Part shown: positions 6,889-47,548 of the stretch, piece after piece
Position numbering within the stretch: position 1 is the first letter of the stretch
How the letters are laid out: each line of letters begins with the position of its first letter
Assembly: GCA_024684455.1 (NCBI GenBank)
Contig: JAIKWU010000079.1
Location: forward strand, 120,489 to 184,488
Origin: Bacteroidaceae bacterium
GTDB taxonomy: Bacteria > Bacteroidota > Bacteroidia > Bacteroidales > Bacteroidaceae
Direction of reading: 5' to 3'
DNA: 64,000 nt
Notes under the pieces: generated by a model
The model's database searches: none
Told to the model about the DNA's origin: nothing
What the model saw: only the letters and a program-made list of their open reading frames with translations
Program-made: the position numbers and the translations under genes

Positions 6889-6912
6889 GCATCACTTTGA
6901 CATTTAATAATT

Positions 6913-8619: not shown

Positions 8620-8628
8620 TTTTTTCCA

Positions 8629-27848: not shown

Positions 27849-30800
27849 TCAGCGCATCAGCACTTTCTTTCCGTCGATGATGTAGAGTCCTTTCGTGGGC
27901 TGTGCGACACGACGTCCGCTGAGGTCATAAATGGTACTTTGTACATTGTTCTTTGTACTTTGTACATCCTCGATGCCTGTCGGTGTCTCGCCGTTGAAGA
28001 AAATGATGCCGCGCGTGGAGGCATCGTCGGGCGTGTCGAGCACGATATAGGCGTGCAGACTCTTGAGTGACGGCGTGGCGGTGTCGGCAACGTAGAAGGC
28101 TGGTACATTCAGGACGTAACTGGTGTGTCCTGCTTCGACAGCCTGCGTCACGTCGAAGTTGGCTGCGTAATTGCCTGAGAAACGTCCGCCTGTGAACGGT
28201 GTGCTATAAGCGGCACCACGTTCGAGCGTCACGCCCGTCACATTATAGGTATGGCTGTCGCTGACGGATGCCGGCGTGAGGAGGAAGGGGACATTGGCGG
28301 TGGTCGTATAGACCCTCTTCGTCTGCAGTTCCGTGCCGTCGTAGCCTGTGATATTCTCGATGAGCGTACCCGTTCCGAAAAGTGTGCGTATCGTGTTGGA
28401 ATTGAGGGCGAAGGGAAGGATGACAGCGTTGCGTTGTCCTGGCTGGAGGGTGCATTTCAGTGTCACATCGGTCTTGCCTGCCTGGAAACCATCGATATCT
28501 TTGTCCTCATCGATGACGACTGGCTTCGACGTCACGTCTTCCAGCATGACGCTGCGGAAGTAGTCAATCTCTTCCTGCGGAATCTTCAGCGTGTTAAGGA
28601 AGTAGTTCTCAAACTTTTCGGTCAGCGTGGTTCCCTCCAATGCATCAATCACAGCGATGCGGTCACTCCATTTGTCCTTATAGCGAGCACCGGCAATCGA
28701 ATAGGAGGTCAACTCAAAGTCCTTGAAGATGGCATCGAAGCCGAGGCCGAGAATACCTTCCTGCAACATGGCCCAGAGGCCTGTGCGGTCAGCACCCCAT
28801 ACGCAGTGGAAGTAGAGGGCCTTGCCGGCGCGAAGGGTTTTGAGCGTGAGTGCCCATTCTTTACGCCAGTGCTCAATCGACTCCTCTTTGTTGAGGTCTT
28901 CGGGCAGCCAGTCGTTGCCGTTGGCGAAGTAGAAGGTGTCGGAGAAACCGAAGGGCGAGTGGCCGGCAGAACTACTGCTCTCGCCATCCCAGCGCAGGTC
29001 GATTTCGGAAGCGATGCCGAGATTGCGCAACACCTGCAGGTCGGCTGCATTGGCGGTGTGGTCGCCGTTCAGTTCCGAGCCACGGTAGATGTGGCCATAC
29101 GTCACACGCTTGGTGCGGTCGTCTGTGAGCCAGCCGCCGAGGTCGCGGATGTTGTTGCCCGTGGGTGCATAGATCATGCGCAGACGGCCTTCGGTGTGGA
29201 AACAACCCTTCTTGCGTGTCGTTCCGTCAGCAACGACGCGGAAATAGTAGGTGCGCTGTGGATAGAGATTAGGAATGTAGCAGTCGGCGCCAGGGAGCAC
29301 ACGGCGTTGTGTCGAGGTGGCAAACGACTTGTCGTCGCTAAACTCCACATAGATGTTCGTAGCATCGCTGATGCCTACCGGTATCATCACGGGGTTGGGC
29401 GTGTCGCGACGTTGCGGCGGAGTCATGCTCCGGTAGTTGTCGATATAACTGTCGCCCGACAGAAAATAGGAAACCTCGGAGAGGAACTTGCGTGCACTGA
29501 AGTTCTCCAACGTGGCGGTGAAGTCCATGCGCTGCGGCTCGACCACGTAGAACGGGAGCGACGTGGATGCTGTGAGCGACGATCCTTTTGCCTGCAGCAG
29601 GTACTTCCACGTGTAGTTGACTTCGCGGCGGTTCTCCTTGATGTAGAACGACTGCAGCCAACCGCCGTTCCACGGCAGGAGGTAGATGTCGGGCTTCACA
29701 GGACTGAGCGTCACGATGCCGAAGTCTATGGCGTCGGTTGTCTCGTAGGGCTTGACGACGCAGGGAACGCCAGCACGCACATGACTGACGGGATAGATGA
29801 CAGCGGTCTTGTCTTTGAGTCCGCCGACACAGTAGAGTTCAGCAAAGTCGTCGGTCGTAATGTCGAAGGGCACACACAGCGGCATAAGCGTGCCTGCCGT
29901 GAATTTCTTCTGGAGGGTGACATGTGCCTTGGTGGGTATGCTGACGGTGTATTCTGTGTCATTGTCCGATAGCGTCACTTCGGGTACATCATCACCGTAG
30001 AAGAGACGGAAGTTGCCGAAGAAGGTGCGGTTGTACGTCAAGGTCGTCGGGTCGATGCGGATGCCCAGCGGAACGTCGCTTGCGGCATCGAGCGTCAAGT
30101 CAACACCTACCCAATAGTCGCCATATTCGAACGAAGTGGGCGCGGAAGCCGAACTGGTGGGGAAGGCCCGTCCTTCCATCGTGGACTGCATACCGCTGGT
30201 GCGTGTCGTGGCATAGCGACAGCCTTCCATCTGGCTCGGCAACTTGACCGACTGGTCGCCCAAGTAGAGCGAAGCCTTCACTTCTTCGATGCCGTTTTCA
30301 TAGTTGCGTACCGAGGTGACCACATCGGTCGGACGATAGAAACCTTGTGCCATCAGGGTGTAATGACCGGCAGGCAGACCCTTAACCACCTGTTCGACGG
30401 TGGCTGTGAGGCGTGTGTTCTCTGCATGACCTACACCGGCAGCCGTCGTCTTCAGATTGGCATTCTTCGCCGTCCATCCGCGTGAACCTTGTGTCATGTC
30501 GGCGTTGGTGATAAGTGCCGTGAGTTCGTAGTTCCCATTGGCGGCAGGATAGTTCTTCACCACGTCAAGCACTGCTGTGCGCACCTCATCGAACACCACC
30601 TCTGCATCGGCATCTGTATCGATGACGCGCAGACGGTTCTGTGCGTCTTGATAGACGACTGCAAAGCCCTCGTGTCCACCCGATGCCTGCTCAACGATAC
30701 CAGCCAGTTTGTCGAGTTGACGGAGGTAGCGGTTGTCAACGGGCTTGATGTCGCCGTAATAGTAGAGTCGTGCATCGACCCACGTCATCCAGTTGAACGA

Positions 30801-31823: not shown

Positions 31824-31879
31824 GTTGTCAATCAGTTTGATTTTACGTCAGTTCTTCCGAACTCTCTTTACTATACAGC

Positions 31880-32080
31880 CTACCAGAGACCTTTTTCCCA
31901 GTTCTCGTTGTTCTCCTGAAGGACGAGGTCCTCGTCCAGTTCATCACGACGAGGAGCATCGACTGGCATACCAGGCTGATACTCGCCGCCGTTGCCTGAA
32001 CCAGGATTCACATCCAAGAGTAGTGGTGCGAAGGGTGCAACCGTTGTCTGCGGTGAATGATATCGCTTTTTCATTATCAT
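31880..32080 (-). CDS. Small acidic protein C of the 'W..LW' family (66 aa, or 64 aa from ATG 32074)
   Basis: M(IM)KKRYHSPQTTVAPFAPLLLDVNPGSGNGGEYQPGMPVDAPRRDELDEDLVLQENNENWEKGLW*; lies between two giant PTP genes, 4 nt after the stop of the upstream one. Confidence 0.75.
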   Translation of the reverse strand: MIMKKRYHSPQTTVAPFAPLLLDVNPGSGNGGEYQPGMPVDAPRRDELDEDLVLQENNENWEKGLW

Positions 32081-32084
32081 ACTC

Positions 32085-35000
32085 TTATTTTACATAAACT
32101 TTTTTACCGTTCACAATGTAAAGACCACGGGTAGGCTGCCCGACACGACGTCCGCTGAGGTCATAAATCGTACTGGGTGCGTCGTCCTTGATACTTTGTA
32201 CCTGGTCTATGCCCGTGGCTTCGCTGTCGAAGGTCACAATGCTCTTCACACCGCTGGCCGGCGTGTCGAGCACGAGGTAAGCGCGAGTGCTCTTCATTGG
32301 AGCAGCCGTCTCATTGATGACGTAGAACTTGTCGTTCGAGATAACGTAGTTCTCCTTGCCGTCAACAGTCGATTTTGCTACGTCCATGGCGGCATAGGTG
32401 CCGACCATCTTGCCGTTCGTAAACACTGCATCGGAGAGTTCGCCCTCAACCATCGTCACTTCGTCGAGCACATAGGTATTGTCGCTACGGGGTTCGGTGG
32501 GCACGAGCAGGAAGGGCTTGTTTGCCGGAGCAATGTCGGTGTCCTTGGTGATTGCCTCTGTCTTCAGCACGCCATCTTCGTAGGAGACGATATTCTCTAT
32601 CTTAGTGCCCTTGCCGAAGAAATCCTTGGCTTTCCACAAATCCAGGTCGCAAGGCAGGACAACGGTGTTGTGCTTATCCGCCTTGAGCGTGCGATGCAGG
32701 GTGATATCGGCCTTGCCATTGTAATAGGCAGGCACGTTGGCATCCTCGTCGATGGTGAGCGGATAGACTTCGAGCATCACGCTACGGAAGTAGGTGATGT
32801 CGTCCATAGGAACGCCAAGTTTGTTCAGGAAGTAGTTTTCAAACTTGTCGCGCAGGGTGGCACCTTCAAGCGCGAGGATGACGTCGATGCGGTCCTGGAA
32901 CGAGGTCTTCAGACGGTTACCGGCAACTGAGAACGAAGTCAGTTCGTAGTCCTTGTATATCTGGTCGATCGTCAAGCCGAGCAGGCCTTCGAGCAGGAAG
33001 GAGAGCATACCCGTGCGGTCGGCACCCCATGCACAGTGGAAATAGACAGCCTTGCCCTGACGGAAGTGGTTGAGGATGAAGTCGAACTCCTGCTTCAGAC
33101 GCTGCTGAGTGCCGCTCTCATTGAGGTTGGCAGCCGTGTAATCATTGGCAGCGGCAAAGTAATAGTCATCGCCTGTAAAGCCGAAGGCGGAGGTGCCACA
33201 GCCCATGTCCTTGTCGTGGTCAGACTTCCAGCGGAGGTCGATTTCGCCACCCACACCAAGGTCGCGCAGTGTCTGCAAGTCTTCGGCAGTGGCACTAAAG
33301 TAGCCGTTGAGCGTCGAGCCACGGAAGAGGTGACCGTAGGTAGTGCGGTGTCTATCCTGCGTCTCCCAACCACCGAGGTCGCGGATGTTGTAGGCCGACG
33401 GTGCATAGACCATGCGCAGGTGACCCTTCGTATGGAACTGACCTCGATAGCCAGTGCTCGCCTCGAAGTACTCGAATTTATAGGTCTCCTGTGGCAAGAG
33501 GTTATAGACGTAGGCTTCTGTGGCTCCAGCAGGAACCATGATGCGTACCACCTCTTCAAAATTGCTGTTCTGTATGATGATTTCTATTTCATCGTTGTGA
33601 GCCGGCAGCGGTATCATTACGGCATTGGGAATGTCACGGCGTGTGGGAGGAGCCACGTTGTAGGCCGCAACCTCAGAGGCTTCGCTGCTGCCGCTGTAGG
33701 ATACTAAATTAAGATACCTGCGTGCAGCGAGGTTCTCCATATTGACATCGAACTCCATGTCATTGAAGTCAAGCACAACCTTTCCTATCTCTGCATCTGG
33801 ATGGGAATTTCCATCCATGCCGTAGTAGGTCCAGGTGTCGTTAGCAGCATTCACCCTGGCCCAGCCGCCAGCCCACGGCATGACGAACTTCTTGCCGTTG
33901 GTCAGCGTCATCTCCATCGGAGCGCTGTAGTTGGCGATGCTGAACTTGGCATAGCAAGGCGTGCCGGCTGGCACGGTGTTGACAGGATAGATAGAGAGGC
34001 TACCCTCAGACTCCTCACCAGCAAGGGCGTAGAGTTCGTCAATATAGTCGTCGCTGACGTCGAGTGTGAACGGAGCGCAGACAGGTGTGAGTTCGTCGGC
34101 AGCGTTGTTGAGGGCCACCTGCGGAACCTCACCGATGTACCAGAGTTTGAAGTTATCGACAGCCGTCCAAGCCTTCGTGTTGGCACAGCGATAGCCGATG
34201 GTGACAAGGGCATCGTCGGCCAGCACACCGATGAGCGTGTTGGGATAGTGCCCAGCCTGCAGATATTTGTTGGCTGCACTGCTACCATTCGGAATGAAGA
34301 AGGAAGCACCGCTGGGCTGTTCGCCACTCAGACTGTTGTTTGTCGTTCCCTGATAGTCGAACAGGTTCATCACCAGTTGCTCGTTGCCGTTGAGGTAGAT
34401 GGCTCCAGTGACGATGCTGTTGCCAGACTGGTAGTCAGCCCAAGCATCATTCATCGGGTCGTTCGTACGTTCGAAACCATCGACCGTCATCTTGTACGCA
34501 CCGGCAGGCAGCATGTAGGGCAGCGTCTGTCCGAGGTCGAACGAACTGTTGTAGTAGCGCATCACGCCGTTGGTCACGCCGACGGTCGTCGATGAGGCCA
34601 GTGTCTCTGTCCAGTACGCCTTGTAGTTCGTATCGCTGAAGTCGGCATCCTGAATCATCCACGTGAGGTCAAAACCTTGCCCCTCGTTGATGGTGACGCT
34701 CTTCAGGAATGTGAGGGCCGCGGCCCAGAGGTTCTGCTTCTCTGCTTCGAGCGCAGCCACGCTGCTGACGTTCTCCACATTGGTGTTGGCCGTGGAGAGC
34801 GCACTGCTGTAGTCGCTGGCGGCTGTGCCTTCGTCGGTATAGACGGCGGTCTGGTCGATGAAGCGCTCTTGAATCATCTGCCGCATGGTCTTGTAGTCAG
34901 CATACGGTTCGACGTAGGGCTCTGCAACGGCCACTGCTGCGTTGATGGCGGCGATGGCGGCCTGATAGTCCTCTGCGGTGGTGTAGGTCTTGTTGTTCTG

Positions 35001-37220
35001 CTGAATGACGTCGGTCAACTGGCGACGAGGCAACGTCGGGATGACGAGGTTTTGTGCCGCACTAACTGTCTGTGCGAGTTGTTCCTGCCAGGCGCTGAGG
35101 TCGAGCGGACCGCGGTAGTAGAGGTGGAAGTCAGACAGGCAAGCCCAGTTGTTAGCAGCATAATTTTCAATTTTGAATCCGATAGTCACATCTCCTCCGT
35201 TGAGCGTTGCCTCCAGTGTGTTCAAGTAGTTATGTGCTGCAAAGTAGTCGTCAAGGTGTGAGCGTGAATTGGGAATGTAGATAGTGTTGCCATTCACGGT
35301 GGTAGAACTGCCGCCGCTCGATGGTTGGGCACTCATACCACCCTCGACAATGTTCATAATCTTTACGCTGGCATCGTTCAGGAAAAGATAAGTGTCATAA
35401 TCGCGTCCTGAGACACTCGACATGTCAGAAGCATGGTTGCCGATACGCTGAAATGCTTCCACTGTAGCGCAATAGGCACCTGCGGGCAGTCCTTGCAGCG
35501 TCTGTTGGATGATGATATTATTACGCAGTTCCGTGATGGAATATTTGCCAAAGTTCAGCACAGAGGCGGGATCGACATCCCATCCCATCGGGCTGACATT
35601 TGTAAAGACGGCATTGGTCAACAGCGAAGTAAGGTCGAATTGTGCTCCGTCGTTGATGGTGACACTTGACATCAGTGATGCCAATGCAGGACGAAGTTGA
35701 GCCTGCTGTGTACCAATAGTAGTGACAGCCTCGCTCAATGCTGCCCCCTGAATGGCTACATCGACGGCGTCAACAGCAGCATTGAATGTAGAAACGGCAC
35801 CATCAGGATCCGTATAGACGTTCTGGGCACAGATGGCCTCCGCCGTTGTCTTCTGTGCTTGATATGCTGAGTAAGCCGCAGACACAGCCTGAGCCGTTGT
35901 AGTTGCATCGGCGATGGCATCGATGGCTGCCTGATAGTCAGCCGATGTCGTATAAGTCTGGTTGTTAGCCGATACGATAGACGCAAGGTCGGCTGCTGCC
36001 TGTGTGGGAAGCGGTGTGACAGCCTGTGCATTTGCCACGGTAGTAGCCAACTGGGCTTCGTATGCAGAAAGGTCTTCAGCATTATAGTAATAAGTAAGAC
36101 GTACGTTATTGAAGCATATCCAGTTAGGATAATCACCTGCTGCATAACTTGGCACGGCAATCGTCAGAGCCAGATTGCCGTCACTGCCCACGTAGGTATA
36201 GACCGTGTTCGTATATTTCGTTCCTTCGTTAAACTCGTCCTTGATATTTCCTCGCGAGGTAGGCTTGGAATGATTATCGGTACTGATGGCATACCAGTCC
36301 TTGATGAGCACCTGATTGTCATTAGCCTTGAAGTAGGCGTTTGAGAATACATAACCGTCATTTCCGTATGTCTGGCAGCGTGCCAGCACCGAAGCTCGGT
36401 AGAATGCCTGCACTTCCACTTTGTACAGACCTGGCGTGAGTCCCGTCACAGTCTGCGTTGTCATGGACTGACCTCCGGCAGCATTCTGAATCTGATAGGA
36501 ACCGTTCGAGATGGCTGTGCCCTGAATGTTGTTCACCGTCCATCCATCGGTGTTCAAGTACATCGTCGGATTGGTGATAGCGTCCGTCTTGTCCATCGAT
36601 GCCATGCTGGCAATAGCCGTCTCCAAGTCGCTCACACTCGATGCCGTGATACCAGCCTGAGTGGCCACGGCTGCTGCACGTGCATTGGCGGCAGCCGTCA
36701 CAATCGATTGTTGTTGAGCAGGCGTGAGGAATTCCCAGACGGCAGCGTTGGCAAGACCGTCAACGAGCACCAGTTCATCGTTCGCATCAATAGCGACGTA
36801 GTAGCCCTGCGTGGCATAAGCCACCTGATTGGGCTTGTAGATACAACGGATGACGAATTGTCCGCTCGCTACCTCTGTAACAGCCCATTTGTGGTAACTC
36901 GAGCCGGCACAGTCCAGACCATCCGCCACGACACGCAGAAAGCGACCATAGTAGTCGCCCATCTGGAAGCGGATGTAGTTGTAGGTGGCATCCGAAAACT
37001 CGCCGACACTTGAGCCCTCGTTCTTAATCTCCACAGGTACGCCATATAGGTCCACCTTCGCACCGCTGTTCGATACAGTTGTTACGCCGTGGCTCAGGAA
37101 CTTGCCTGTTGCAGGGTTGTAGAAATAACCCTTCGTTCCGTCGGCAGGAATGGATGCAGTTGCTGTTAACGAAACCAGCCAGCACAGAACGGCCGATAAA
37201 AGCAAATGTTTCTTGTTCAT
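32085..37220 (-). CDS. Giant secreted protein with tyrosine-phosphatase-like domain (PTP-2), C-terminal tail
   Basis: Signal peptide; helical repeats (YEAQLATTVANAQAV..., YTTSADYQAAIDAI); NIRDLGGWETQDRHRTTYGHLFRGSTLNG and FHCAWGADRTG; tail IYDLSGRRVGQPTRGLYIVNGKKVYVK. Confidence 0.82.
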   Translation of the reverse strand: MNKKHLLLSAVLCWLVSLTATASIPADGTKGYFYNPATGKFLSHGVTTVSNSGAKVDLYGVPVEIKNEGSSVGEFSDATYNYIRFQMGDYYGRFLRVVADGLDCAGSSYHKWAVTEVASGQFVIRCIYKPNQVAYATQGYYVAIDANDELVLVDGLANAAVWEFLTPAQQQSIVTAAANARAAAVATQAGITASSVSDLETAIASMASMDKTDAITNPTMYLNTDGWTVNNIQGTAISNGSYQIQNAAGGQSMTTQTVTGLTPGLYKVEVQAFYRASVLARCQTYGNDGYVFSNAYFKANDNQVLIKDWYAISTDNHSKPTSRGNIKDEFNEGTKYTNTVYTYVGSDGNLALTIAVPSYAAGDYPNWICFNNVRLTYYYNAEDLSAYEAQLATTVANAQAVTPLPTQAAADLASIVSANNQTYTTSADYQAAIDAIADATTTAQAVSAAYSAYQAQKTTAEAICAQNVYTDPDGAVSTFNAAVDAVDVAIQGAALSEAVTTIGTQQAQLRPALASLMSSVTINDGAQFDLTSLLTNAVFTNVSPMGWDVDPASVLNFGKYSITELRNNIIIQQTLQGLPAGAYCATVEAFQRIGNHASDMSSVSGRDYDTYLFLNDASVKIMNIVEGGMSAQPSSGGSSTTVNGNTIYIPNSRSHLDDYFAAHNYLNTLEATLNGGDVTIGFKIENYAANNWACLSDFHLYYRGPLDLSAWQEQLAQTVSAAQNLVIPTLPRRQLTDVIQQNNKTYTTAEDYQAAIAAINAAVAVAEPYVEPYADYKTMRQMIQERFIDQTAVYTDEGTAASDYSSALSTANTNVENVSSVAALEAEKQNLWAAALTFLKSVTINEGQGFDLTWMIQDADFSDTNYKAYWTETLASSTTVGVTNGVMRYYNSSFDLGQTLPYMLPAGAYKMTVDGFERTNDPMNDAWADYQSGNSIVTGAIYLNGNEQLVMNLFDYQGTTNNSLSGEQPSGASFFIPNGSSAANKYLQAGHYPNTLIGVLADDALVTIGYRCANTKAWTAVDNFKLWYIGEVPQVALNNAADELTPVCAPFTLDVSDDYIDELYALAGEESEGSLSIYPVNTVPAGTPCYAKFSIANYSAPMEMTLTNGKKFVMPWAGGWARVNAANDTWTYYGMDGNSHPDAEIGKVVLDFNDMEFDVNMENLAARRYLNLVSYSGSSEASEVAAYNVAPPTRRDIPNAVMIPLPAHNDEIEIIIQNSNFEEVVRIMVPAGATEAYVYNLLPQETYKFEYFEASTGYRGQFHTKGHLRMVYAPSAYNIRDLGGWETQDRHRTTYGHLFRGSTLNGYFSATAEDLQTLRDLGVGGEIDLRWKSDHDKDMGCGTSAFGFTGDDYYFAAANDYTAANLNESGTQQRLKQEFDFILNHFRQGKAVYFHCAWGADRTGMLSFLLEGLLGLTIDQIYKDYELTSFSVAGNRLKTSFQDRIDVILALEGATLRDKFENYFLNKLGVPMDDITYFRSVMLEVYPLTIDEDANVPAYYNGKADITLHRTLKADKHNTVVLPCDLDLWKAKDFFGKGTKIENIVSYEDGVLKTEAITKDTDIAPANKPFLLVPTEPRSDNTYVLDEVTMVEGELSDAVFTNGKMVGTYAAMDVAKSTVDGKENYVISNDKFYVINETAAPMKSTRAYLVLDTPASGVKSIVTFDSEATGIDQVQSIKDDAPSTIYDLSGRRVGQPTRGLYIVNGKKVYVK

Positions 37221-37424
37221 AGAAATAGTAAATTAAAATTGTGAATAGTTAGGATTTTCGCATTGTATGACGCAAAGATACGGAAAAAAGAGAAAAGTGA
37301 AAAGAGAAAAGTGAAAAAAAAGCAGAAACTCGTGTGATACTCCGCATATTTCCGTGGTTCGCAGTTATCTTCGTTCTTAATAACTGCCTGAGAATCATCA
37401 AAAAATTGTACCAAATAATTTTTT

Positions 37425-37528
37425 GCGTGTTGGTACAAAAGTTTCACCGCAGTGAAACACAAGTTTCATCGCAGTGGAAAAAAAGTTTCACTGCGGTGAA
37501 ACTTTTGTACCTCCGCAGTGGAAAAAAC
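37425..37528. repeat. 22-bp-period tandem array, family 1, copy 2
   Basis: Units at 37425, 37447, 37469, 37491 and 37513; contains GTTTCACCGCAGTGAAAC and GTTTCACTGCGGTGAAAC; preceded by GTACCAA...TTGGTAC as in copy 1. Confidence 0.85.
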
Positions 37529-37564
37529 ATCGCCGCACCGTCTCCTTTCGGGAACGGTGCGGCG
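37525..37564 (-). terminator. Hairpin terminator downstream of peptide B (minus-strand transcript)
   Basis: cgccgcaccgt / acggtgcggcg arms; minus strand continues ATGTTTTTTCC. Confidence 0.75.
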
Positions 37565-37591
37565 GCGACTATCTTACTGTGTGAAAGGATT

Positions 37592-37771
37592 TTACCAAAG
37601 GTTGCCCCACGACGTGGGTTCTTCAGAGTCGTAGTCAAGTTGCTTTGTCTCAGCCACGCCAGGGCCATCATCTCCGCCGAAGGGGAGGGAGTCATCGCCA
37701 CAGATATAGGTGCGAGGCACAGACAGGAATATCGTCTGCCGAGGTGTGATGTATGCTACTTTCTTTTTCAT
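37592..37771 (-). CDS. Small acidic protein B of the 'WGSLW' family (59 aa; absent from the supplied ORF track)
   Basis: Manual translation: MKKKVAYITPRQTIFLSVPRTYICGDDSLPFGGDDGPGVAETKQLDYDSEEPTSWGNLW*; ATGA overlap with the stop of the C10-peptidase gene; aligns with peptide A. Confidence 0.82.
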   Translation of the reverse strand: MKKKVAYITPRQTIFLSVPRTYICGDDSLPFGGDDGPGVAETKQLDYDSEEPTSWGNLW

Positions 37772-40700
37772 CGTATCAGAACTTTTTGACCGTTAATGAT
37801 GTAAAGGCCCTTCGGAAGCATTGACCATTGACCATTAACCATTGAGAGCTTACGCCCCGCAAGGTCATAGATTTCACTCTCATCTCTCAACGCTCCGCTC
37901 TCAACTAACTGGATGCCCGTAGCAGTTTCGTCAATCTCGATGGCGAGTTGCTTGACGCTGCTGCCTGTGGTGTTGACAAAGTAGGAACGGAAGGGGTTAA
38001 GGGTGATGCTGCCAGAGGTCTTCCAGAACTTGTCCTGGGCGATGTAGTAGGCATTGGCATCGGTTACGGTCTGTGCGGTATAACTGCCGACAAGGCTCCA
38101 TCCGTCGCAGTCGTCGGCAGTGGAGGCCGACGTGGTCTGACTGACGCCAACCGACGTGGCACTGAGCGTGACTCTCGTGGCACTCTCGTCGAGTCGGCGG
38201 AAGACAGCAGGAGTGTTGGCAGGCACACTGGTGGCGGGAGTGAACTTCATGGAACTCTCGATGACGGACGATAGTGTGTAGTACTGCACGGCATCGTTCG
38301 AAGAAATGGCGTATGGTACCAATACAGTGCCCCACTTGCTGCTCATGTCGCGCGAATATGTGGCATTGGCAGCACTGAAGGCCTTAGGAACTTCGAGCGG
38401 CGTCCCGTCAGTAAGGACGAAGTTCTGGCACTGTCCGTTGGCCACGACGTTGTTCTGTGTAGAGACGAACTGCGTGGCTGTGGCGGCATAGATGACCTGG
38501 TTCTTGTTGCGAGGATAGAACCGCACACCGACGGCTTGACCGTAGAGGGCAAGGTCAGCATTCGTTGTGTAATCGACGTAGGCAGCATCACGTCCGCCCC
38601 AGAAATAGTCCTGACGCAAATAGGAGGCATCAGTTTCCTGCTCAGCAGCAGTGTCGCTAATGAACTGGAGGTGAACGTTCTTCATCTGGATATAACTCTT
38701 CAGGGCACGGATGCCGAAGAACACCGAGTTGGTGGTTGTTGTGGCGGCACAGGTGTAGGTGCCGAAAGCGCGTGCAGCACCTGTGTTGCGCGTGCTGACC
38801 TGTTCGCTGGCACCGACACGTTCGCCGATGATGAATGCCACCATGTCGGCTGCATCGCCCGAGAAGTCTGTGCCAAGGTCAACGCTGAGGCGATAGGTGC
38901 CATTAGGCAGACCCGTGACGTTCTGGTTGATTTCCAAGTCGTTCAGCGTGGGATACCAGATGTTATAGACATTGGCTCCGTCCTGTGTACGAATCCACAC
39001 ATCACCGCCTCCGTCCACACTCTTGATGCCCATGTTCCAACCGTAGGGAGCCTCGTTGTTGAGGGTTGTGTTGCTGAGGTTGGCATTGGCAACAAACTGC
39101 GTGGCATCCTGTCCTGCCTCAGCGATAGCAGCACCGTTGTTCAGGATGGTGATGGCCGTGGCAATCTCGGCATCGGTCTTCGTTTCGTACTCAGCATCCG
39201 TCCACTCATATTGCGCAAGGGCTGCCGTGGCAGCACCGCTCCCAGATGTCTCGTACTGGTCGCGGGCTTCCTGGCACCTTTGCAACGCAATCTCATAGAG
39301 GTTCACCTCCTCGACTTCTGCTCCGTAGCAATAGAGGAAGGCATTGTCCCAAGCCACCCAGTTGGCATCGGTACTTTCGATGAAGAGACCAGCCGTCACG
39401 TTGCCCTTGTCCGTGGCAGTGAATTTCTCAGTCGTGAAGTATTCAGGCGCACCATTGCCCGTGTGGCAAGCAACCGTCTTGTCGCCCAGGCGCAGCGTCA
39501 CGCCACTCACACTGAGCGAAGCGTTGTTCTGGCGTACGGCATTGACGGCTGCACGCAATGCATACGTACCCTTGTAGAGATAGATGCTCTGCGTGGCACT
39601 CATGTTGGCCAAAGCACCTTCCGACCCCGTCCACGACTCCATAAAGTCAGGATCGAAATTGTCGTAAGTGGCCCCCTGTTTCCAAAGGTTACCGTTGAGT
39701 GTCCAGCCCGCCAGGTCGCTCTCCATACGAGGGTTCGTCAGGAGTGGCACACGGATAGGATTTGCAGCCGAGGCCAGTGCGTAGTAGGATTCTTCGGTGC
39801 CTGCCCAATAAAGGAACAGGTTGTCAACGCCCACCCAGTTGGCAGTCGTCATGTCGGTCTTCATACCGAAGGTGAGAGTGCCGTCAGTCACAGTGACTTT
39901 AAGGGCGTAGATCTCGGGAACGCCGTTGCGTGTTCCGAGGCTGACAGCCTGGTCGCCTGCCCAGAATGTGACACCCTCGACTTGGGAGCCATCCCCACCC
40001 TGTGCCGTGGCCATGAACGAACCGCCGATATAGTAGGTACCGTTCTGCAATTCGCGGATGGTTTGCTGGAAGCCACCGTTGTCAAGCATGTTGTTAGACC
40101 CCGTCCAGCGTTCGATGAAGGGTGCAGCCATGGCTGCACCGTTGCTGCCAGTGTATTCGCCCCAAGTGCCTATGGCAAAGCCGTTGTTCGTATATTCACC
40201 GAGCGAAGCGGTCGAGAGCCACGGAGCGTAGGCATTGGTGAGGTCGTAGAAGTCCTGGCCTGCTGCAGCGTTCTTTACGGTGCTGTAGGTGTAGTCGGGG
40301 GTGTTCAGATAGCGGTAGAGGCGGAAGTCGTCAGCCTTGTACCAACTGCCGGCATTGACGCCGATGGAGAGTTTTCCGTCAGAACCGACGGTGATGCCGT
40401 CGATGCTGACTTCCTGCAGATAGTATTTGCCACAATCGTGAGCACCGGTAGTGACGGTCTTGTCGCCTGCAAAGACGGTCACGGTGTTGCCTGGATCGGT
40501 GGCGACTTTGGCTGTGAGTTTGTAGGTACCTGCAGTGAGTCCGCTGACGGTCTGACTGACGCCGTCGCCCACGTCGCCACTCTTCCAACTGTCGAGCACC
40601 ATGTTACCATCGGCACCGACAGCGCGATACCAGTCCACATTGGCATCGCGACTGAATTGTCCGCCGCCGAGCGTCCATCCAGTAGGCGTATTGTTGTTAT

Positions 40701-42198
40701 GGAGTTCGAACGATGGATTGGCAATCTTCGAAGTGACGTCCTCAAAGTCGCCTGGCACCTTGATGCGGTCGAGGATGTGGAACGTGTTATCCACCACGGT
40801 AAGGTACCACACGCTTCCCGCACCTGGATTGACGGTGAAGGTTAGGTTTACATCGCTTCCTCCGGCGGGGATGGTAGTCCAGTCGGCCTGATAGTTTTCC
40901 CATGCCGTGGGCTGCACAGGCGTAGTTGTGCAGAAGATGTTGACAGCCGACGTATAGTCCTTCGTGCCGTTGTTGCGCACCGTCACCGTCACCGTGTTGT
41001 TGGTGTTGGCCTGAAAATTAGGTGCAGAAATCTCAGCACTGAGGTTCTGACGGTTGGGCCAGATGTGGTAGGTCATGCTCTGGTCGGTATTGAATCCATT
41101 GGCATCACTCAGTACAAACCAGCCGTTCCAGCCGCCGTTCCAGCCGAAGTCGAAGTAATACTTTCCGTCGCTCAGCCGGTAGCCGTCAAGCACAAAGGCG
41201 TGACCTGCCCAATCAGGCGTATAACCGCTGTAGAGAATGGGGCGGCCAGCCTCCAGATCTTCGGCAATCATGTTCTCCCAGTTGTCCATATTGTTCACAC
41301 CACTGTACCACACGTTTTCGCCGTGAAGGTTGAAGACAGCCAGCGCATTGGGCTGCTCACTGCTCTGCGCACCGCTGCTGCCAGCCGCATAGTCCATGTG
41401 AACAGCAGTACCGACAATGCTGACCAGTTCGGCAGCACTCGTGTAGTAGTCGCTGCCATTACCGTAGTTCGTGCCGTCGTACGAGTCCTTCATCAGTTCC
41501 CAACGCATAGGGAATCCTGCCTTGTAGCCCTTCACCTGAATCTTCTTTGTCCAGGTTTCGTAATCGCTCGTCGAATTGAGCGTATAGCGGGGACAGTCGC
41601 GACGCCAGTAATGGATAACCGACGACGTGCTTGTCGCCACACAGCCCGTCGCACTGCGGTCGTTCCCGTCCATCGGGCAGAGGTCGTAGTAGGGCCATCC
41701 CTGACCCCATGCCGACGTCATAATCGGATCGATGTTGCGACTGGCCGCACGACGGGGCTTGGCAGCGGCACGGCGCGATGTTACTAACCGACGTGCTGCC
41801 TCTTCGCCGTTTTCCTCGACGTAGGCATGGTACTTGTCCAGCGCCACTTCAAAGCCGTAGAGGTAGTCCTGCAGGGCAGGAGGCATGTTGGTAGCGTCGA
41901 AGTCGCCCTGCTCGGTGCAGCCAATGATTTCGGGCAGAACATCGTCGGCTGCAACAATGACAAAGCCCTTTCCCTTACCACGTGAGAATATATAATAAGG
42001 AGAGGTACGGGTCGAAAGATGGGCCGCAGCACGGCGTTTCATGTTCACACTCAGTCCGTCGTTCACGAGGACAGGCTTTACACCAGTCGGCAGATAGGTG
42101 GTTGCCAACTGCTTTGCACGTTCGAGGTCGATGGGGTCGGCCGTAGCCGTCAACACACCTACCCAAACGAGGGCAGCAAAAAGAAGAACTTTTTTCAT
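37768..42198 (-). CDS. Giant secreted C10 (streptopain-like) cysteine peptidase with CBM-like modules and C-terminal tail
   Basis: Pro-region GKGFVIVAADDVLPEIIG; catalytic Cys SATGCVATSTS; catalytic His AGHAFVLDGY; tail IYDLAGRKLS...KGLYIINGQKVLIR. Start taken at 42198. Confidence 0.88.
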   Translation of the reverse strand: MKKVLLFAALVWVGVLTATADPIDLERAKQLATTYLPTGVKPVLVNDGLSVNMKRRAAAHLSTRTSPYYIFSRGKGKGFVIVAADDVLPEIIGCTEQGDFDATNMPPALQDYLYGFEVALDKYHAYVEENGEEAARRLVTSRRAAAKPRRAASRNIDPIMTSAWGQGWPYYDLCPMDGNDRSATGCVATSTSSVIHYWRRDCPRYTLNSTSDYETWTKKIQVKGYKAGFPMRWELMKDSYDGTNYGNGSDYYTSAAELVSIVGTAVHMDYAAGSSGAQSSEQPNALAVFNLHGENVWYSGVNNMDNWENMIAEDLEAGRPILYSGYTPDWAGHAFVLDGYRLSDGKYYFDFGWNGGWNGWFVLSDANGFNTDQSMTYHIWPNRQNLSAEISAPNFQANTNNTVTVTVRNNGTKDYTSAVNIFCTTTPVQPTAWENYQADWTTIPAGGSDVNLTFTVNPGAGSVWYLTVVDNTFHILDRIKVPGDFEDVTSKIANPSFELHNNNTPTGWTLGGGQFSRDANVDWYRAVGADGNMVLDSWKSGDVGDGVSQTVSGLTAGTYKLTAKVATDPGNTVTVFAGDKTVTTGAHDCGKYYLQEVSIDGITVGSDGKLSIGVNAGSWYKADDFRLYRYLNTPDYTYSTVKNAAAGQDFYDLTNAYAPWLSTASLGEYTNNGFAIGTWGEYTGSNGAAMAAPFIERWTGSNNMLDNGGFQQTIRELQNGTYYIGGSFMATAQGGDGSQVEGVTFWAGDQAVSLGTRNGVPEIYALKVTVTDGTLTFGMKTDMTTANWVGVDNLFLYWAGTEESYYALASAANPIRVPLLTNPRMESDLAGWTLNGNLWKQGATYDNFDPDFMESWTGSEGALANMSATQSIYLYKGTYALRAAVNAVRQNNASLSVSGVTLRLGDKTVACHTGNGAPEYFTTEKFTATDKGNVTAGLFIESTDANWVAWDNAFLYCYGAEVEEVNLYEIALQRCQEARDQYETSGSGAATAALAQYEWTDAEYETKTDAEIATAITILNNGAAIAEAGQDATQFVANANLSNTTLNNEAPYGWNMGIKSVDGGGDVWIRTQDGANVYNIWYPTLNDLEINQNVTGLPNGTYRLSVDLGTDFSGDAADMVAFIIGERVGASEQVSTRNTGAARAFGTYTCAATTTTNSVFFGIRALKSYIQMKNVHLQFISDTAAEQETDASYLRQDYFWGGRDAAYVDYTTNADLALYGQAVGVRFYPRNKNQVIYAATATQFVSTQNNVVANGQCQNFVLTDGTPLEVPKAFSAANATYSRDMSSKWGTVLVPYAISSNDAVQYYTLSSVIESSMKFTPATSVPANTPAVFRRLDESATRVTLSATSVGVSQTTSASTADDCDGWSLVGSYTAQTVTDANAYYIAQDKFWKTSGSITLNPFRSYFVNTTGSSVKQLAIEIDETATGIQLVESGALRDESEIYDLAGRKLSMVNGQWSMLPKGLYIINGQKVLIR
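37819..37903. repeat. Two 7-nt-period arrays in frame in the C10-protein tail (cattgac x2, cattaac, cattgag; and actctca/tctctca/.../gctctca)
   Basis: Read directly; encode SMVNGQWSM and ESGALRDESE flanking IYDLAGRK. Confidence 0.7.
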
Positions 42199-42438
42199 TG
42201 TGATAAGATAAGGTGTTAAACAAAACTCTCGCAAAGTTATGGATAAAATTTCAAAACACCATCCCTTTAAGTGTATTTTGAGCGATTTGTGGTATTTTTT
42301 GATTGATTATTCTCCAACGAAAAAGGTTGAAATAAAAATGGCTGAAAAAAAATGGGGATAAATACTAAAAGAAATTGGGATAATTTAAGATAAATTTTGC
42401 ACTTCGTGCACATATATATAAGAATAATAACTGTGGAA

Positions 42439-42565
42439 AAAACTCCTCCCCGGAAAGGGGAGGTACCCTGAAAGGGCGGAGGGGTAACAATCATCAAAAC
42501 TATGCTTTGAAGTTAGTGACCCCTCCGTCGCTTCGCGCCACCTCCCCTTTCCGGGGAGGAGTTTT
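42439..42565. repeat. Large intergenic inverted repeat
   Basis: Perfect 26-nt outer arms aaaactcctccccggaaaggggaggt / acctcccctttccggggaggagtttt with inner ggaggggt/acccctcc arms. Confidence 0.85.
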
Positions 42566-42638
42566 CAAAAACAATCCGTCAAGCCTTATTCAAACCTATT
42601 TATTCCAATTTCTTTCAGTCAAAAATGCTTGCAGTCCA

Positions 42639-45600
42639 TTATTTGCAGAGCACTTTTTGGCGGTTCACAATGTACATTCCCTTCGTAGGAGCACTGACAC
42701 GACGACCGCTGAGGTCATAAATTGGTAAATTGTTCATTGTTAATTGTTCATTGTTCATTGTCTCAATTCCCGTGGCTTCGCCGTCGAAGCGGACGATGGG
42801 TTTGGCTTCGCCACTGGTGGATGTGTCGAGTGTAAGGTAGGCGCGGGTGCCTCGCATCGTTCCCGACTCGTCTCCGACGAGGTAGAAGCAGTCGTCGCTG
42901 ATGACGTAGTTCTCTCTCCCTGCCGCGGTACTGCGACCGACGGTAGTGGCTGCTGCATAGGAGCCCTGCATGGTGCCGCCGCTGAAGGTGTAGGCGGTAG
43001 GGGTTCCGCTGCGGGTAAGAATGCCACTGAAGTCATAGGTGTTGTCGCTACGGAGTTCGGTGGGCACGAGCAGGAAGGGCACATGGGCGGTGGTGCTGCT
43101 GAGGGTTTCTGTGTTGAGTAGACCTGCCTCAGCGTCATAGTCGGTAATCTGCTCGAGCACACTGCCGCTTCCGAACACTTGCTCGGTCTGGGCGGCGGTG
43201 AGGTCGAAGGGGAGGACGAGGGTGTTGTGCTTGTCAGCCTTCAAGGTGCGGATGAGCCGTGCGGCGGTGATGTTGGCCTGCTCAACCGTGTAGTCGGCAC
43301 TCTCGTCGAGGGTGGCAGGGTGCAGATTGAGACGGAAGTTGAACTGGCAGGCGCGGTGCTTGCCGGCATCGTCGGCCGGCGCCAGCATGAGGACCGAGCA
43401 GACGTAGGTGCCTGCCTGACAGGCGCCGGGACGCTGACCGTGACCGAGTTTCAGCGTGCCGCCGTCGATGTAGAACCCCTCGATGTTGAGAAAGATGCGG
43501 GCCGTGGCTTCGTTCCAAGTGGGCTGGTTGTAGAGTGTGCCCGGAGTTCCGTCGGTGTTCTGATACCAGAAACCTTTGGCGTCGCTGGCGTTCTTTGCCC
43601 GGCTGATGCTGCTGTCGTCGAGCGGCGCATACATCATGTCGAGTTTGAATTGGCTGATTGGCAACTGGAGCAGTGTGGGCACGTCGCCGCCGGCACTGAG
43701 GCCCGTGACGTTGTGCGTGGCCCACTCGTCACGAACAGGGAAAAAGTCGATGTCGATGTCCTGCGTGTGGACGATGTTGAGGTCGCTCTTGCTGACCACG
43801 ACGGGATAGGCCTCGACGGTGGCCTTGTCGATGGTGCGTGGCATCCAGACCTGCATGTATCCACGTCCACGGTTGTTCCATGCATAGTAAGGAACGAGTG
43901 TCAGCGTGGCATCGGCCGTGGTCTGGCCTCTCTTCACCTGACCTGTCACGTTAATGCCCTTGAACGTATAAGCAGCAATGCTGGCGTCGATGACGGTGGC
44001 CTCAGCCTCGTCATTGCAGATGAGGGCAGAGAAGTTGTCGGGATTGTCGATGCCTTCCATGCAATAGACGACAGGTCCGCGTTCGACGGCAACCAGTCCC
44101 TGGTCGGCAGCGACAGCGTTGTTGGCAATGACGTGCTGCACAGGCATCGGCAGGCTGAAGGTCACTTCGTCGCCTTCATTCCATGTGCGCTCAATGGTCA
44201 TGTAGCCGTCCTGCAGGGTGTAGGCGACGGGAGTGCCGTTCACCTTGACCTCGATGTCGGCGTGTGTGCCATCGACATAACTGTAGAGGTCGCTGGGCAC
44301 AGGCTCACCCTTTGCCCAACCTGGCAGACGGAGCATAAGGGTAAGATTCTTCTCACTCAAACCATCAACATTAAACCCTAAGCGTATATCTCCATTCCAA
44401 GGATAGTCGGTCGTCTGCGTGAGGTGCAGCGTGCCACGTGAACCAAGGTCGATGTCGGCCGTGCCCTGCATGTATAGGTTCACATAGACCTTGTCGTCCT
44501 TATGGGCGTAGACATAACCAGGCACGGAGGCGATGAAGCGGCAGAGGTTGCTCGGACAGCAGGCACAGCCGAACCACGGCTCACGCTCGGCCGAACGACC
44601 ATTGTAGCCGTTGCCGTCGCTGGCCAGCGGATTGGGATAGAAGAAACGGTTGCCGTCGAGGTTGATGCCTGAGATGACACCGTTGTAGAGCGAACGCTCG
44701 AGCACATCGTAGTATTTCGACTCGCCATGCAGCAGGAACATGCGCCAGTTCCAATAGACGTTGGCAATGGCGGCACACGTCTCGCAGTAAGCCTCCTTGT
44801 TGGGCAGTTCGTAGTTCGCACCGAAGGACTCGCCCGCATGGCGCGCACCGATGCCGCCGTTGATGTAGAACTTCTTCTCAGCCACATTGCTCCAGATCTT
44901 GTCAATGGCCGAGAGATAGGCCTCATCGCCCATGATGGCTGCCACGTCGGCCATGCCGCTATACATGTAGGCGGCACGCACGGCATGTCCCACGGCCTCG
45001 TCTTGCATCACCACGGGCTTGTGGGTCTGGCTGTACTCCTGGCGCATCACGCCGCGAGCACCACGCAAGTCGAGGAAATATTTCGCCAGACGCAGGTAGT
45101 CCTCCTTGCCTGTGGCACGGTAAAGTTTCACGAGACCCATCTCGACAATCTGGTGACCAGGCTCATACGTCAGACCTCCTTCGAGGAAGTCATGAACAAG
45201 CAGGTCGGCATTCTTCGTGGCGATGTCGAGCAGCGACGTCTTGCCCGTCGAGACATAGTGCGCATAGGCAGCCTCATAGAGGTGACCCGCATTGTAGAGT
45301 TCGTGCGACAGGTCAGGGTCTTTCTCCCAGCGGTTCTGCCCCACCCATCCGTGCATACCCGCAGGGTTGCCAGCCGTACGCGGCGTGTAGAGATAGCCGT
45401 CGGGCTCCTGAGCCGCACCCACGATGGCGATGAGTTCGTCCATCTTTGCCGAAATCTGAGCGTTGGGCTTCACCTGCACACTGTAGGCCATGCCCTCGAG
45501 AATCTTGTAGATGTCCGTATCGTCGAACGTACACTCGGTGTCGAAATAGCCGATGTTCTCACCGCGCAGAATGGCTGCAGCCTTCTGAAAGTTCAGCACG

Positions 45601-47489
45601 CGGTTGGAGTTGTAGCACTGCTCGATGGCAAAGGGAATCGTCACGGTCTGGTTCTGCTCCATACGCGGTTGCCAGAACTGGTCGGTCAGGTGTACCCGTG
45701 CAAAGTCAACGTTCTGAATCGGATAATCGCCATAAGTTATAGTCACTTCCGTGCGGTGACCCAGTGCTTCCCATTCAGTCACGCCCACGCCGCTATACGT
45801 CGAGCCGTTCGATTGTGCCTGTATGAAAAGGCGCAATTGCTTAGTCTCCACAGGCTCAAAGCGTACGCTGCTCACCTCGGTGCGGCTCTGTGTATAGGCC
45901 TCGCCGGCGAGCAAGGTCACATCTTTCCACATACTGCTTGCTTCGTCCCAGTACTGCACCTTCCATGATGCAGGCAGGACCACATGGTCGCCCGGCACGT
46001 CGCTGTCCGTCCACCATGCCACACGCACACGTTCCACCGTCTGCGGCTCGTTCCAGCCGTAGCGCAACCAGTGGTCACGCGTGCGGTTCGGATCCCATGT
46101 GTTCCAATGCTTGTTCTCGGGCAGTTCGCCAAAGCCGAGGATGCCGTCGTTCACCGTGTAGAGCGAAGTCGTGGCGTGGGTGAAACTGGCTTCCAGTTCC
46201 GTAGCGTCGTAGGCCAGGTTGTCCAGTGCTTCGGGCAGGCCGCCCACATAGTCGGTCGTCGTGCCCAGCATGATTTGGATGAATTCATTCAAATCGTCCA
46301 GCGTGACATGAGCATGCTGGTGCCAGTAGTTGATGAATTTTTGTTGCAATGTCTCGCCATCGAACGTCTTGACATACGTGACGATGGGTTCTACCTTTGC
46401 TTTCGTTCGTGTTTCACCTTCTGGGAACGAAAGCGCTGTCAGTTCATATTCTTGATAGAGGTCTTCCTCGGACAGACCCAGCAGACCTTCGAGCATGAGG
46501 GCCAGTGTACCTGTGCGGTCGGCACCCCAGATGCAATGGAAATAGACAGGATTGCCTGCACGCAGGTTCTTCAGGATGAAGTCGAAGTCGGCGCGATAGT
46601 TGGCCCATGCCGTACGCACACCGTCGAGGTAGAAAGGTTCATTCACCACGCGCAGGTAGTCAACGTCGTTGCCCAGCGGCGACACCTTTATATTTTGTGC
46701 CTGCGCATGCGTGCGTAAGTCGAGTTCGGCACGGATGCCCACTTCGTCGCGCAGCGTCTGCAGGGCAGCCTCCGATGCCGTGTATTTTTCGCCCTGCAAC
46801 TCACAGCCGCGGAACAGTTTGCCGTACTGAACGGTCTCGCCGCGTGCCGTGGTCCATCCACCTAAGTCGCGGATGTTCTGCAAACCGTCGGCATTGACCA
46901 CATGCACCCATTCGGGGGCTTCTTCGTCAGACCCTACCACGTTGAGCGTCAGGTCCATCTCGACGGCTTTGGTGCCGTTGACGGCATAGAATACCGTGTG
47001 GTAAGTATCGCCAATTCTCGAGGTGTAGGCATTGTTATAGACACCTGCCTGACCTGTCCAGATGATCAGGTTTATGTCGTTGTCAGTCACAGGCTGGATG
47101 AACCACCAACTCTGTCCGCCCCACGACGAACGGTAGCCGTTCTTGTCATACCAGTTGTCGTTGTTGTGGCCGTAGGTTCCGTCGCCTGCGAGCGGGAAGT
47201 AGAGCATGTTGTTCACGTTCGACTTCGTTACGGTCGTGCCCAGCAGCGCCGACAAGTCACTGTAGGGAATGGGCAGCACCGTATGGTCGTATTTGGTGTT
47301 GGGGTTCTGCTTGGCGTTGAGCACATAGCGCACAGCCACCTGCAGCGTCTTCGACTCTGTCTTGTAGGTGAACGGTACCTGGAGCGAAACCTCCTCGCGG
47401 GTCACAGTGGGCACGCCGATGACTTCGTCGGCCCACACGCCTGTCGTCGTGACAAGCAACAGCAACATCGTTGCCAAAATCTTATTCAT
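42639..47489 (-). CDS. Giant secreted fusion: tyrosine-phosphatase-like domain (PTP-3) + discoidin-like domain + GH127 (beta-L-arabinofuranosidase-like) + tail
   Basis: NIRDLGGWTTARGETVQYGKLFRGCELQG and FHCIWGADRTG; DQFWQPRMEQNQTVTIPFAIEQCYNSNRVLNFQKA, DGYLYTPRTAG, FGCACCPSNLCRF (GH127); tail IYDLSGRRVSAPTKGMYIVNRQKVLCK. Start taken at 47489. Confidence 0.85.
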   Translation of the reverse strand: MNKILATMLLLLVTTTGVWADEVIGVPTVTREEVSLQVPFTYKTESKTLQVAVRYVLNAKQNPNTKYDHTVLPIPYSDLSALLGTTVTKSNVNNMLYFPLAGDGTYGHNNDNWYDKNGYRSSWGGQSWWFIQPVTDNDINLIIWTGQAGVYNNAYTSRIGDTYHTVFYAVNGTKAVEMDLTLNVVGSDEEAPEWVHVVNADGLQNIRDLGGWTTARGETVQYGKLFRGCELQGEKYTASEAALQTLRDEVGIRAELDLRTHAQAQNIKVSPLGNDVDYLRVVNEPFYLDGVRTAWANYRADFDFILKNLRAGNPVYFHCIWGADRTGTLALMLEGLLGLSEEDLYQEYELTALSFPEGETRTKAKVEPIVTYVKTFDGETLQQKFINYWHQHAHVTLDDLNEFIQIMLGTTTDYVGGLPEALDNLAYDATELEASFTHATTSLYTVNDGILGFGELPENKHWNTWDPNRTRDHWLRYGWNEPQTVERVRVAWWTDSDVPGDHVVLPASWKVQYWDEASSMWKDVTLLAGEAYTQSRTEVSSVRFEPVETKQLRLFIQAQSNGSTYSGVGVTEWEALGHRTEVTITYGDYPIQNVDFARVHLTDQFWQPRMEQNQTVTIPFAIEQCYNSNRVLNFQKAAAILRGENIGYFDTECTFDDTDIYKILEGMAYSVQVKPNAQISAKMDELIAIVGAAQEPDGYLYTPRTAGNPAGMHGWVGQNRWEKDPDLSHELYNAGHLYEAAYAHYVSTGKTSLLDIATKNADLLVHDFLEGGLTYEPGHQIVEMGLVKLYRATGKEDYLRLAKYFLDLRGARGVMRQEYSQTHKPVVMQDEAVGHAVRAAYMYSGMADVAAIMGDEAYLSAIDKIWSNVAEKKFYINGGIGARHAGESFGANYELPNKEAYCETCAAIANVYWNWRMFLLHGESKYYDVLERSLYNGVISGINLDGNRFFYPNPLASDGNGYNGRSAEREPWFGCACCPSNLCRFIASVPGYVYAHKDDKVYVNLYMQGTADIDLGSRGTLHLTQTTDYPWNGDIRLGFNVDGLSEKNLTLMLRLPGWAKGEPVPSDLYSYVDGTHADIEVKVNGTPVAYTLQDGYMTIERTWNEGDEVTFSLPMPVQHVIANNAVAADQGLVAVERGPVVYCMEGIDNPDNFSALICNDEAEATVIDASIAAYTFKGINVTGQVKRGQTTADATLTLVPYYAWNNRGRGYMQVWMPRTIDKATVEAYPVVVSKSDLNIVHTQDIDIDFFPVRDEWATHNVTGLSAGGDVPTLLQLPISQFKLDMMYAPLDDSSISRAKNASDAKGFWYQNTDGTPGTLYNQPTWNEATARIFLNIEGFYIDGGTLKLGHGQRPGACQAGTYVCSVLMLAPADDAGKHRACQFNFRLNLHPATLDESADYTVEQANITAARLIRTLKADKHNTLVLPFDLTAAQTEQVFGSGSVLEQITDYDAEAGLLNTETLSSTTAHVPFLLVPTELRSDNTYDFSGILTRSGTPTAYTFSGGTMQGSYAAATTVGRSTAAGRENYVISDDCFYLVGDESGTMRGTRAYLTLDTSTSGEAKPIVRFDGEATGIETMNNEQLTMNNLPIYDLSGRRVSAPTKGMYIVNRQKVLCK
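42728..42762. repeat. 7-nt-period array in frame in the PTP-3/GH127 tail linker (aattgtt cattgtt aattgtt cattgtt cattgtc)
   Basis: Read directly; encodes ETMNNEQLTMNN before LPIYDLSGRR. Confidence 0.85.
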
Positions 47490-47548
47490 TCGTACCATAC
47501 TATAAATTATGAAAGCATTTTAACTTTTAATTTTCAATGACTCTACTC

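Follow-up and report, generated by a model that had tools for sequence, protein, structure and literature searches.

A locus encoding three giant proteins with Y_phosphatase3 domains and predicted type IX export, one of them a fusion to GH127

Atypical lipid phosphatases carry the active-site signature HCXXGKDR[TA]G, in which the Asp serves as acid/base and the Lys as a substrate-binding residue, and Pho16B, a related Y_phosphatase3 enzyme with a Lys-type loop, is a promiscuous enzyme that also acts as a phytase (PMC6409689). The joining of a Cys-phosphatase to a carbohydrate-binding module (CBM) has a precedent in laforin (PMC9254107), and the zinc and catalytic site of GH127/GH146 enzymes consists of Glu-X-Cys and Cys-Cys residues (PMC10850190). 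The PTP domain family, GH127 and the type IX (T9SS) export route are all known already. What appears to be new in the locus described here, judging from the open-access literature that we searched, is a Lys-less clade of giant, putatively exported proteins, a PTP-GH127 fusion, and the overall combination; that literature yielded no report of a PTP-GH fusion and no useful paper on a PTP with a GH or on rumen PTP-like phytases.

The stretch of DNA analyzed (64 kb in total; hereafter the window) belongs to a 2.79-Mb assembly of 98 contigs that is 87.6% complete. A motif search confined HC[VAI]WGADRTG and NIRDLGGW to three minus-strand ORFs of the window, PTP-1, PTP-2 and PTP-3, where both motifs are in frame (NIRDLGGW at 29153, 33389 and 46877; HCVWGADRTG, HCAWGADRTG and HCIWGADRTG at 28808, 33038 and 46538, respectively). 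All three proteins scored far above the curated cut-off of 22.2 bits for Y_phosphatase3 (PF13350) (Table 1), so the presence of the motifs is not due to chance, and the motif pairs recognized in an earlier, sequence-only reading of this DNA are real. The description of the proteins in that reading as giant and secreted is likewise borne out by the ORF lengths and by N-terminal hydrophobic leaders, judged by eye, in all three. It had overlooked the complete GH127 in PTP-3 and the C10 peptidase ORF, devoid of a PTP domain, that lies inside the interval; the second ATG of PTP-3, at which it had placed the end of the interval, is likely the true start. Relatives of the PTPs come almost exclusively from the ruminant gut, and the closest named loci, in a comparison from which records of the window's own genome may be missing, belong to uncultured rumen Prevotellaceae genomes, which points to a rumen Prevotellaceae/Bacteroidaceae lineage as the probable source.

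Table 1. Positions of the PTP genes, their domains and adjoining genes in the window
Feature	Coordinates	Strand	Supporting match
PTP-1, 1324 aa: signal peptide, jelly-roll-like modules, Fn3-like, PTP, C-terminal domain, sorting tail	27849..31823	-	
PTP-1 C-terminal sorting-type tail (...IYDLSGRRVAQPTKGLYIIDGKKVLMR)	27852..28061	-	
PTP-1 Y_phosphatase3 domain (aa 887-1047)	28683..29165	-	PF13350 E 2.7e-21, 77.1 bits
PTP-1 P-loop HCVWGADRTG (aa 1006-1015)	28779..28808	-	
PTP-1 jelly-roll-like repeat module	29979..30548	-	family profile matches module-like ends of solved endo-galactanase (9fli)
PTP-2, 1711 aa: layout of PTP-1 plus extra modules	32085..37220	-	
PTP-2 C-terminal sorting-type tail	32088..32297	-	
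PTP-2 Y_phosphatase3 domain (aa 1274-1441)	32898..33401	-	PF13350 E 1.5e-24, 87.7 bits; AlphaFold2 pLDDT 92.4
PTP-2 P-loop HCAWGADRTG (aa 1395-1404)	33009..33038	-	
Fn3-like domain directly upstream of PTP-2 PTP domain (boundaries approximate)	33417..33653	-	fibronectin 1fnf 5.5e-6
PTP-2 jelly-roll-like module, same family as that of PTP-1	36066..36605	-	
C10 (streptopain-type) peptidase carrying an I69 prodomain, extra modules and the shared tail; no phosphatase	37768..42234	-	PF01640 9.6e-37, PF13734 8.8e-19
PTP-3, 1619 aa: PTP-GH127 fusion	42639..47498, likely start 47489	-	
PTP-3 C-terminal sorting-type tail	42642..42851	-	
PTP-3 GH127 catalytic, middle and C-terminal domains (aa 602-1220)	43839..45695	-	PF07944 1.9e-108, PF20736 1e-22, PF20737 6.8e-24
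PTP-3 F5/F8 type C-like (galactose-binding fold) domain, sub-threshold	45828..46151	-	PF22633 E 4.2e-5, 24.5 bits (cut-off 27.8)
PTP-3 Y_phosphatase3 domain (aa 202-371)	46386..46895	-	PF13350 E 5.4e-25, 89.2 bits
PTP-3 P-loop HCIWGADRTG (aa 321-330)	46509..46538	-	
Reg_prop (two-component-propeller) and AraC-type regulator directly upstream of PTP-3	47888..50671	-	

A single-sequence structure prediction reached a pLDDT of only 38.5 and was superseded by an AlphaFold2 model of the PTP-2 Fn3-PTP stretch built from a 79-row alignment (pLDDT 92.4, pTM 0.92). The model adopts the PTP fold expected from the motifs, and its best PDB matches are Cys-phosphatases: Foldseek placed a C. difficile PTP (1e-9) and M. 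tuberculosis PtpB (1e-7) at the top, with laforin, TpbA and DUSPs further down (3e-4 or weaker). A sequence profile agreed with the fold match (8dhi, 1e-21; 1ywf, 2e-14). The catalytic fold of the PTP domain is thus well supported by prediction, with a CX5R loop set in a PTP fold, as in the Cys-phosphatase (PTP) superfamily, the fold being modelled for PTP-2 only. The His, Cys, Gly, Asp and Arg of the P-loop were invariant in 79 of 79 relatives, as was the upstream R-D-x-G-G. Because this set had been picked by a regular expression that demands the loop, the circularity of the residue count was checked on five left-out loci; four have a complete loop, all four keep CX5R with the Asp, and the remaining one (L159) is cut by a contig end. 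Comparison of the window with its orthologues in another genome (L094) gave dN/dS values of 0.12-0.21 for the PTP domains, indicating purifying selection; these values are lower than those of most flanking parts, and the GH127 part is lower still (0.09). Taken from sequence and model, the PTP domain is very probably an active enzyme.

Placement of the three proteins in the PtpB/LipA-type group, as first suggested, did not hold. The Lys of HCXXGKDR[TA]G is replaced by Ala in PTP-1, -2 and -3, which read GADRTG, and among the 79 relatives this site is Ala in 66, Arg in 10, and Lys, Leu and Cys in one each. In a 124-row tree, 14 small Lys-type proteins from the same taxonomic family split from the other 110 rows with support of 100/99, although this split involves long branches and calls for caution; PTP-1, -2 and -3 would accordingly be placed in a well-supported clade apart from the Lys-type proteins. 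The absence of the signature Lys and the separate clade lower the phosphoinositide option of the sequence-only reading: such substrates are less likely, and host signalling finds no support. A Trp two residues past the Cys occurs in 47 of the 79 relatives; it may stack on a sugar.

At the level of the PTP domain the three proteins are paralogous, PTP-1 and PTP-3 being 57% and 39% identical to PTP-2, but the tree does not support the view that they are recent copies. PTP-1 grouped with its L094 and L082 orthologues (100/99), PTP-3 with the other fusions (six rows, 100/100) and PTP-2 with a further, different set of sequences, and each subclade has its own orthologues in other genomes. Thus, three lineages meet in one locus. 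Recent tandem duplication was ruled out by the tree, which shows old paralogues in different subclades. The PTP-1/PTP-2 pair adjoins feoB in L082 too, and all three genes also occur together in L094. Within PTP-2, the PTP domain (32757-33452; 11163-11873 in L094) shares 95% identity with its L094 orthologue at a dS of 0.15, whereas the flanks of the two genes have a dS of 0.8-1.2; the confinement of low dS to this domain points to recent exchange or conversion of that domain alone. Two further PTP proteins are encoded elsewhere in the same genome (L072 on contig C35 and L073 on contig C50), one of which has 863 aa, carries HCAGGADRTG and ends shortly after the PTP domain. Related PTP domains were also seen in MAGs labelled Hungatella, Ruminococcus or Clostridia (L161, L163, L166 and L175), and may reflect either transfer or misbinning.

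The C-terminal tail of the three PTPs recurs in the C10 peptidase, in the protein encoded at 20255 and in both lectin-like proteins (11461 and 14350). The TIGR04183 sorting-domain model did not match the tails in the window; as it is blind to them, a tail profile was tested by its co-occurrence with PorU in 151 genomes, at least five matches being counted as abundant. The tail was abundant in 94 of 112 PorU-positive and in 2 of 39 PorU-negative genomes (table 94/2/18/37; Fisher 3e-19, a p-value that is indicative only, since the genomes are related), and both of these PorU-negative genomes are incomplete assemblies. The window's own genome has PorU (972 bits) and SprA (2730 bits). The proteins therefore resemble T9SS cargo in having a conserved C-terminal tail whose occurrence follows that of T9SS genes. 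Type IX export of PTP-1, -2 and -3 is a well-supported prediction, and their attachment to the surface is probable.

The profile of the jelly-roll-like modules matched both chain ends of the endo-galactanase, with a whole-chain E of 5.9e-8 and values of 0.006 and weaker for single stretches, and this one moderate match suggests a carbohydrate role for the modules. The Fn3-like assignment was made by hmmsearch with a profile of the segment before the PTP domain of PTP-2, which is all-beta in the AlphaFold2 model. Profile searches returned no solved relative for the N-terminal domain of PTP-2 or for the domain before Fn3. Pfam scans of the PTPs detected no CBM20 or CBM48, so the pairing of a starch-binding CBM with a DSP domain that characterizes glucan phosphatases is not seen. 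Most giant PTP relatives have no recognized hydrolase beside the PTP domain. In two relatives, the sorting tail is replaced by a dockerin type I end (L109:5334-8861, aa 1120-1173; L152:6297-9071, aa 876-923).

In PTP-3, the PTP domain is followed by the sub-threshold F5/F8-like domain and then by a complete GH127, with catalytic, middle and C-terminal domains. The best solved relative of the GH127 part is PDB 6ex6 (1.8e-210), followed by GH127 beta-L-arabinofuranosidases, and the expected Glu/Cys3 zinc and catalytic residues are kept (E906, C908, C980 and C981). The aceric acid hydrolase model (NF049879) gave PTP-3 463 bits, far below its cut-off of 950. The fusion recurs in L094/L099, L151, L085/L155 and L084/L158, the GH127 part being 70-90% identical; Pfam confirmed both domains in L084, and L083/L156 carries the N-terminal part up to a contig end. 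Uninterrupted or contig-cut frames in other assemblies rule out an assembly artefact. Among 400 sampled genomes of the family, five, the window's own included, have the fusion, and they represent two genera. No common partner lies beside it in the other genomes: L084 has a SusC/D-like pair, and L155 glycosyltransferase and EamA genes.

The regulator directly upstream of PTP-3 combines a propeller with an AraC HTH, and Pfam detected no histidine kinase or receiver domain in it. The regulator-PTP-3 order is kept in L155 together with further neighbours; it fits glycan sensing, though it may be plain synteny. There is no SusC/D pair within the window, indicating that the PTP locus is not a standard PUL. 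Elsewhere in the window, the genes at 11461-14208 and 14350-17082 form a tandem pair (67% identical) that combines ricin-B with laminin-G-like domains and has a tail of the same type, the 20255-24922 protein (1555 aa) has about 480 C-terminal residues in common with the C10 peptidase protein (41%), and imelysin, di-haem oxidoreductase and cytochrome c assembly genes lie in a row at 5692-10812.

We tentatively favour the view that PTP-1, -2 and -3 act in the rumen as surface-attached phosphomonoesterases whose substrates are phosphorylated glycans or glycoconjugates. After export by a Sec signal peptide and then the type IX system, the proteins would stay at or near the outer surface of the rumen Prevotellaceae/Bacteroidaceae cell, where the Cys-X5-Arg domain would hydrolyse phosphate monoesters: the P-loop Cys would attack the phosphorus while the Arg holds the phosphate, the Asp of GADR, which is the acid/base residue in the scheme for PtpB-type enzymes, would protonate the leaving group, and water would then free the phosphate. 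The jelly-roll-like, Fn3-like and other modules may place the enzyme on the glycan or glycoconjugate. In PTP-3, since the GH127 is part of the same chain, dephosphorylation and arabinose removal by a beta-L-arabinofuranosidase-type enzyme would share one target, for which a plant glycan or glycoprotein of the feed is the simplest candidate; the two domains could, however, act on unrelated sites or targets. The extracellular dephosphorylation proposed in the sequence-only reading is consistent with the predicted export, PTP fold and catalytic residues, and the GH127 fusion points towards glycans or glycoconjugates as the substrate, which that reading had covered only under the word polymer. The endo-galactanase-matching module, the dockerin ends of two relatives, the ruminant-gut origin and the laforin precedent point the same way, which suggests that dephosphorylation is part of extracellular glycan handling in these bacteria; against this stand the rarity of the fusion, the many giants with no recognized hydrolase and the non-PUL character of the locus. 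A bolder version is more speculative, although conceivable: the GADR clade would comprise bacterial extracellular glycan phosphatases, analogues of laforin and SEX4 that remove phosphates blocking glycan breakdown, and the PTP-GH127 protein would couple this to the removal of arabinose from a single phosphorylated glycan or glycoprotein of plant origin.

The proteins might instead scavenge Pi as broad-specificity surface phosphomonoesterases on sugar phosphates, nucleotides and inositol phosphates (phytate) in rumen fluid, a possibility that we regard as rather doubtful. Pho16B, promiscuous and active on phytate (PMC6409689), sets a precedent, and there are several PTP copies per genome, but the PTPs lack the Lys found in the Pho16B signature, and solved PTP-like cysteine phytases match only at E about 0.9 (0.88-0.94 by sequence profile) and are absent among the best 50 fold matches. 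Phytate itself is neither favoured nor disfavoured as a substrate. A possible metallophosphoesterase nearby, at 18816, would suit scavenging and had been cited for extracellular dephosphorylation; its Pfam match is sub-threshold (19.3 bits; cut-off 21.5), and it is weak evidence for such dephosphorylation. Moreover, scavenging needs neither large glycan-type modules nor a GH127 fusion, and no phosphate-regulated neighbour was seen, the regulator adjoining PTP-3 being of the propeller/AraC type. It is unlikely that, instead of feed glycans, the PTPs dephosphorylate bacterial targets (envelope glycans, or proteins that are secreted or on the surface) of the cell itself or its neighbours: beta-L-arabinofuranosidase-type GH127 activity is typical of plant targets (PMC10850190) and no partner kinase was identified, even though surface export is supported and the PTP genes have genes for a secreted C10 peptidase and for lectin-like proteins as neighbours. 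We give very little credence to a role as host-directed effectors, in which they would be lipid and tyrosine phosphatases of the PtpB/LipA type with phosphoinositides or phosphotyrosine of the host as substrates. The closest solved folds are of that kind (C. difficile PTP and PtpB), but the defining Lys is missing, the clade is separate, and for T9SS-tailed proteins of 1300-1700 aa from rumen commensals there is no evident host-cell entry route and no intracellular-targeting feature was found in them. Equally improbable is a catalytically inactive binding module, since, although loss of the Lys alters the pocket and activity is a prediction here, the Cys, Arg, Asp and His are invariant and the dN/dS is low.

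If the PTPs do act on glycans, rumen biomass breakdown would include a dephosphorylation step that has been overlooked, and a testable role would be gained for a widespread set of exported proteins, from uncultured rumen Bacteroidales, which sequence searches can label only as 'tyrosine phosphatase'. The PTP-GH127 fusion offers a direct handle, because one chain with two active sites points to a single target.

Compared with the glucan phosphatases laforin, SEX4 and LSF2, the likeness lies in the idea of a Cys-phosphatase combined with carbohydrate-binding modules (PMC9254107), and laforin (4rkk) is a weak fold match to the PTP-2 model (E 3e-4); those enzymes, however, are eukaryotic, intracellular and of the DSP subtype with a starch-binding CBM, whereas the PTPs here lack CBM20/CBM48. 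With Prevotella-type T9SS cargo they share a signal peptide, a conserved C-terminal tail and a genome that encodes PorU and SprA, but their tail is not matched by TIGR04183. With Y_phosphatase3 enzymes (M. tuberculosis PtpB, C. difficile PTP 8dhi and Pho16B) they have the family, the fold and the HC-X2-G-X-D-R core in common; they differ in the replacement of the P-loop Lys by Ala, in the NIRDLGGW form and in being embedded in T9SS-type cargo of 1300-1700 aa, and they form a clade separate from the 14 small Lys-type Y_phosphatase3 proteins. Finally, PTP-3 matches GH127 beta-L-arabinofuranosidases (Bifidobacterium HypBA1; 6ex6) over their full length and keeps Glu-X-Cys...Cys-Cys, but here the GH127 is fused C-terminal to a PTP domain.
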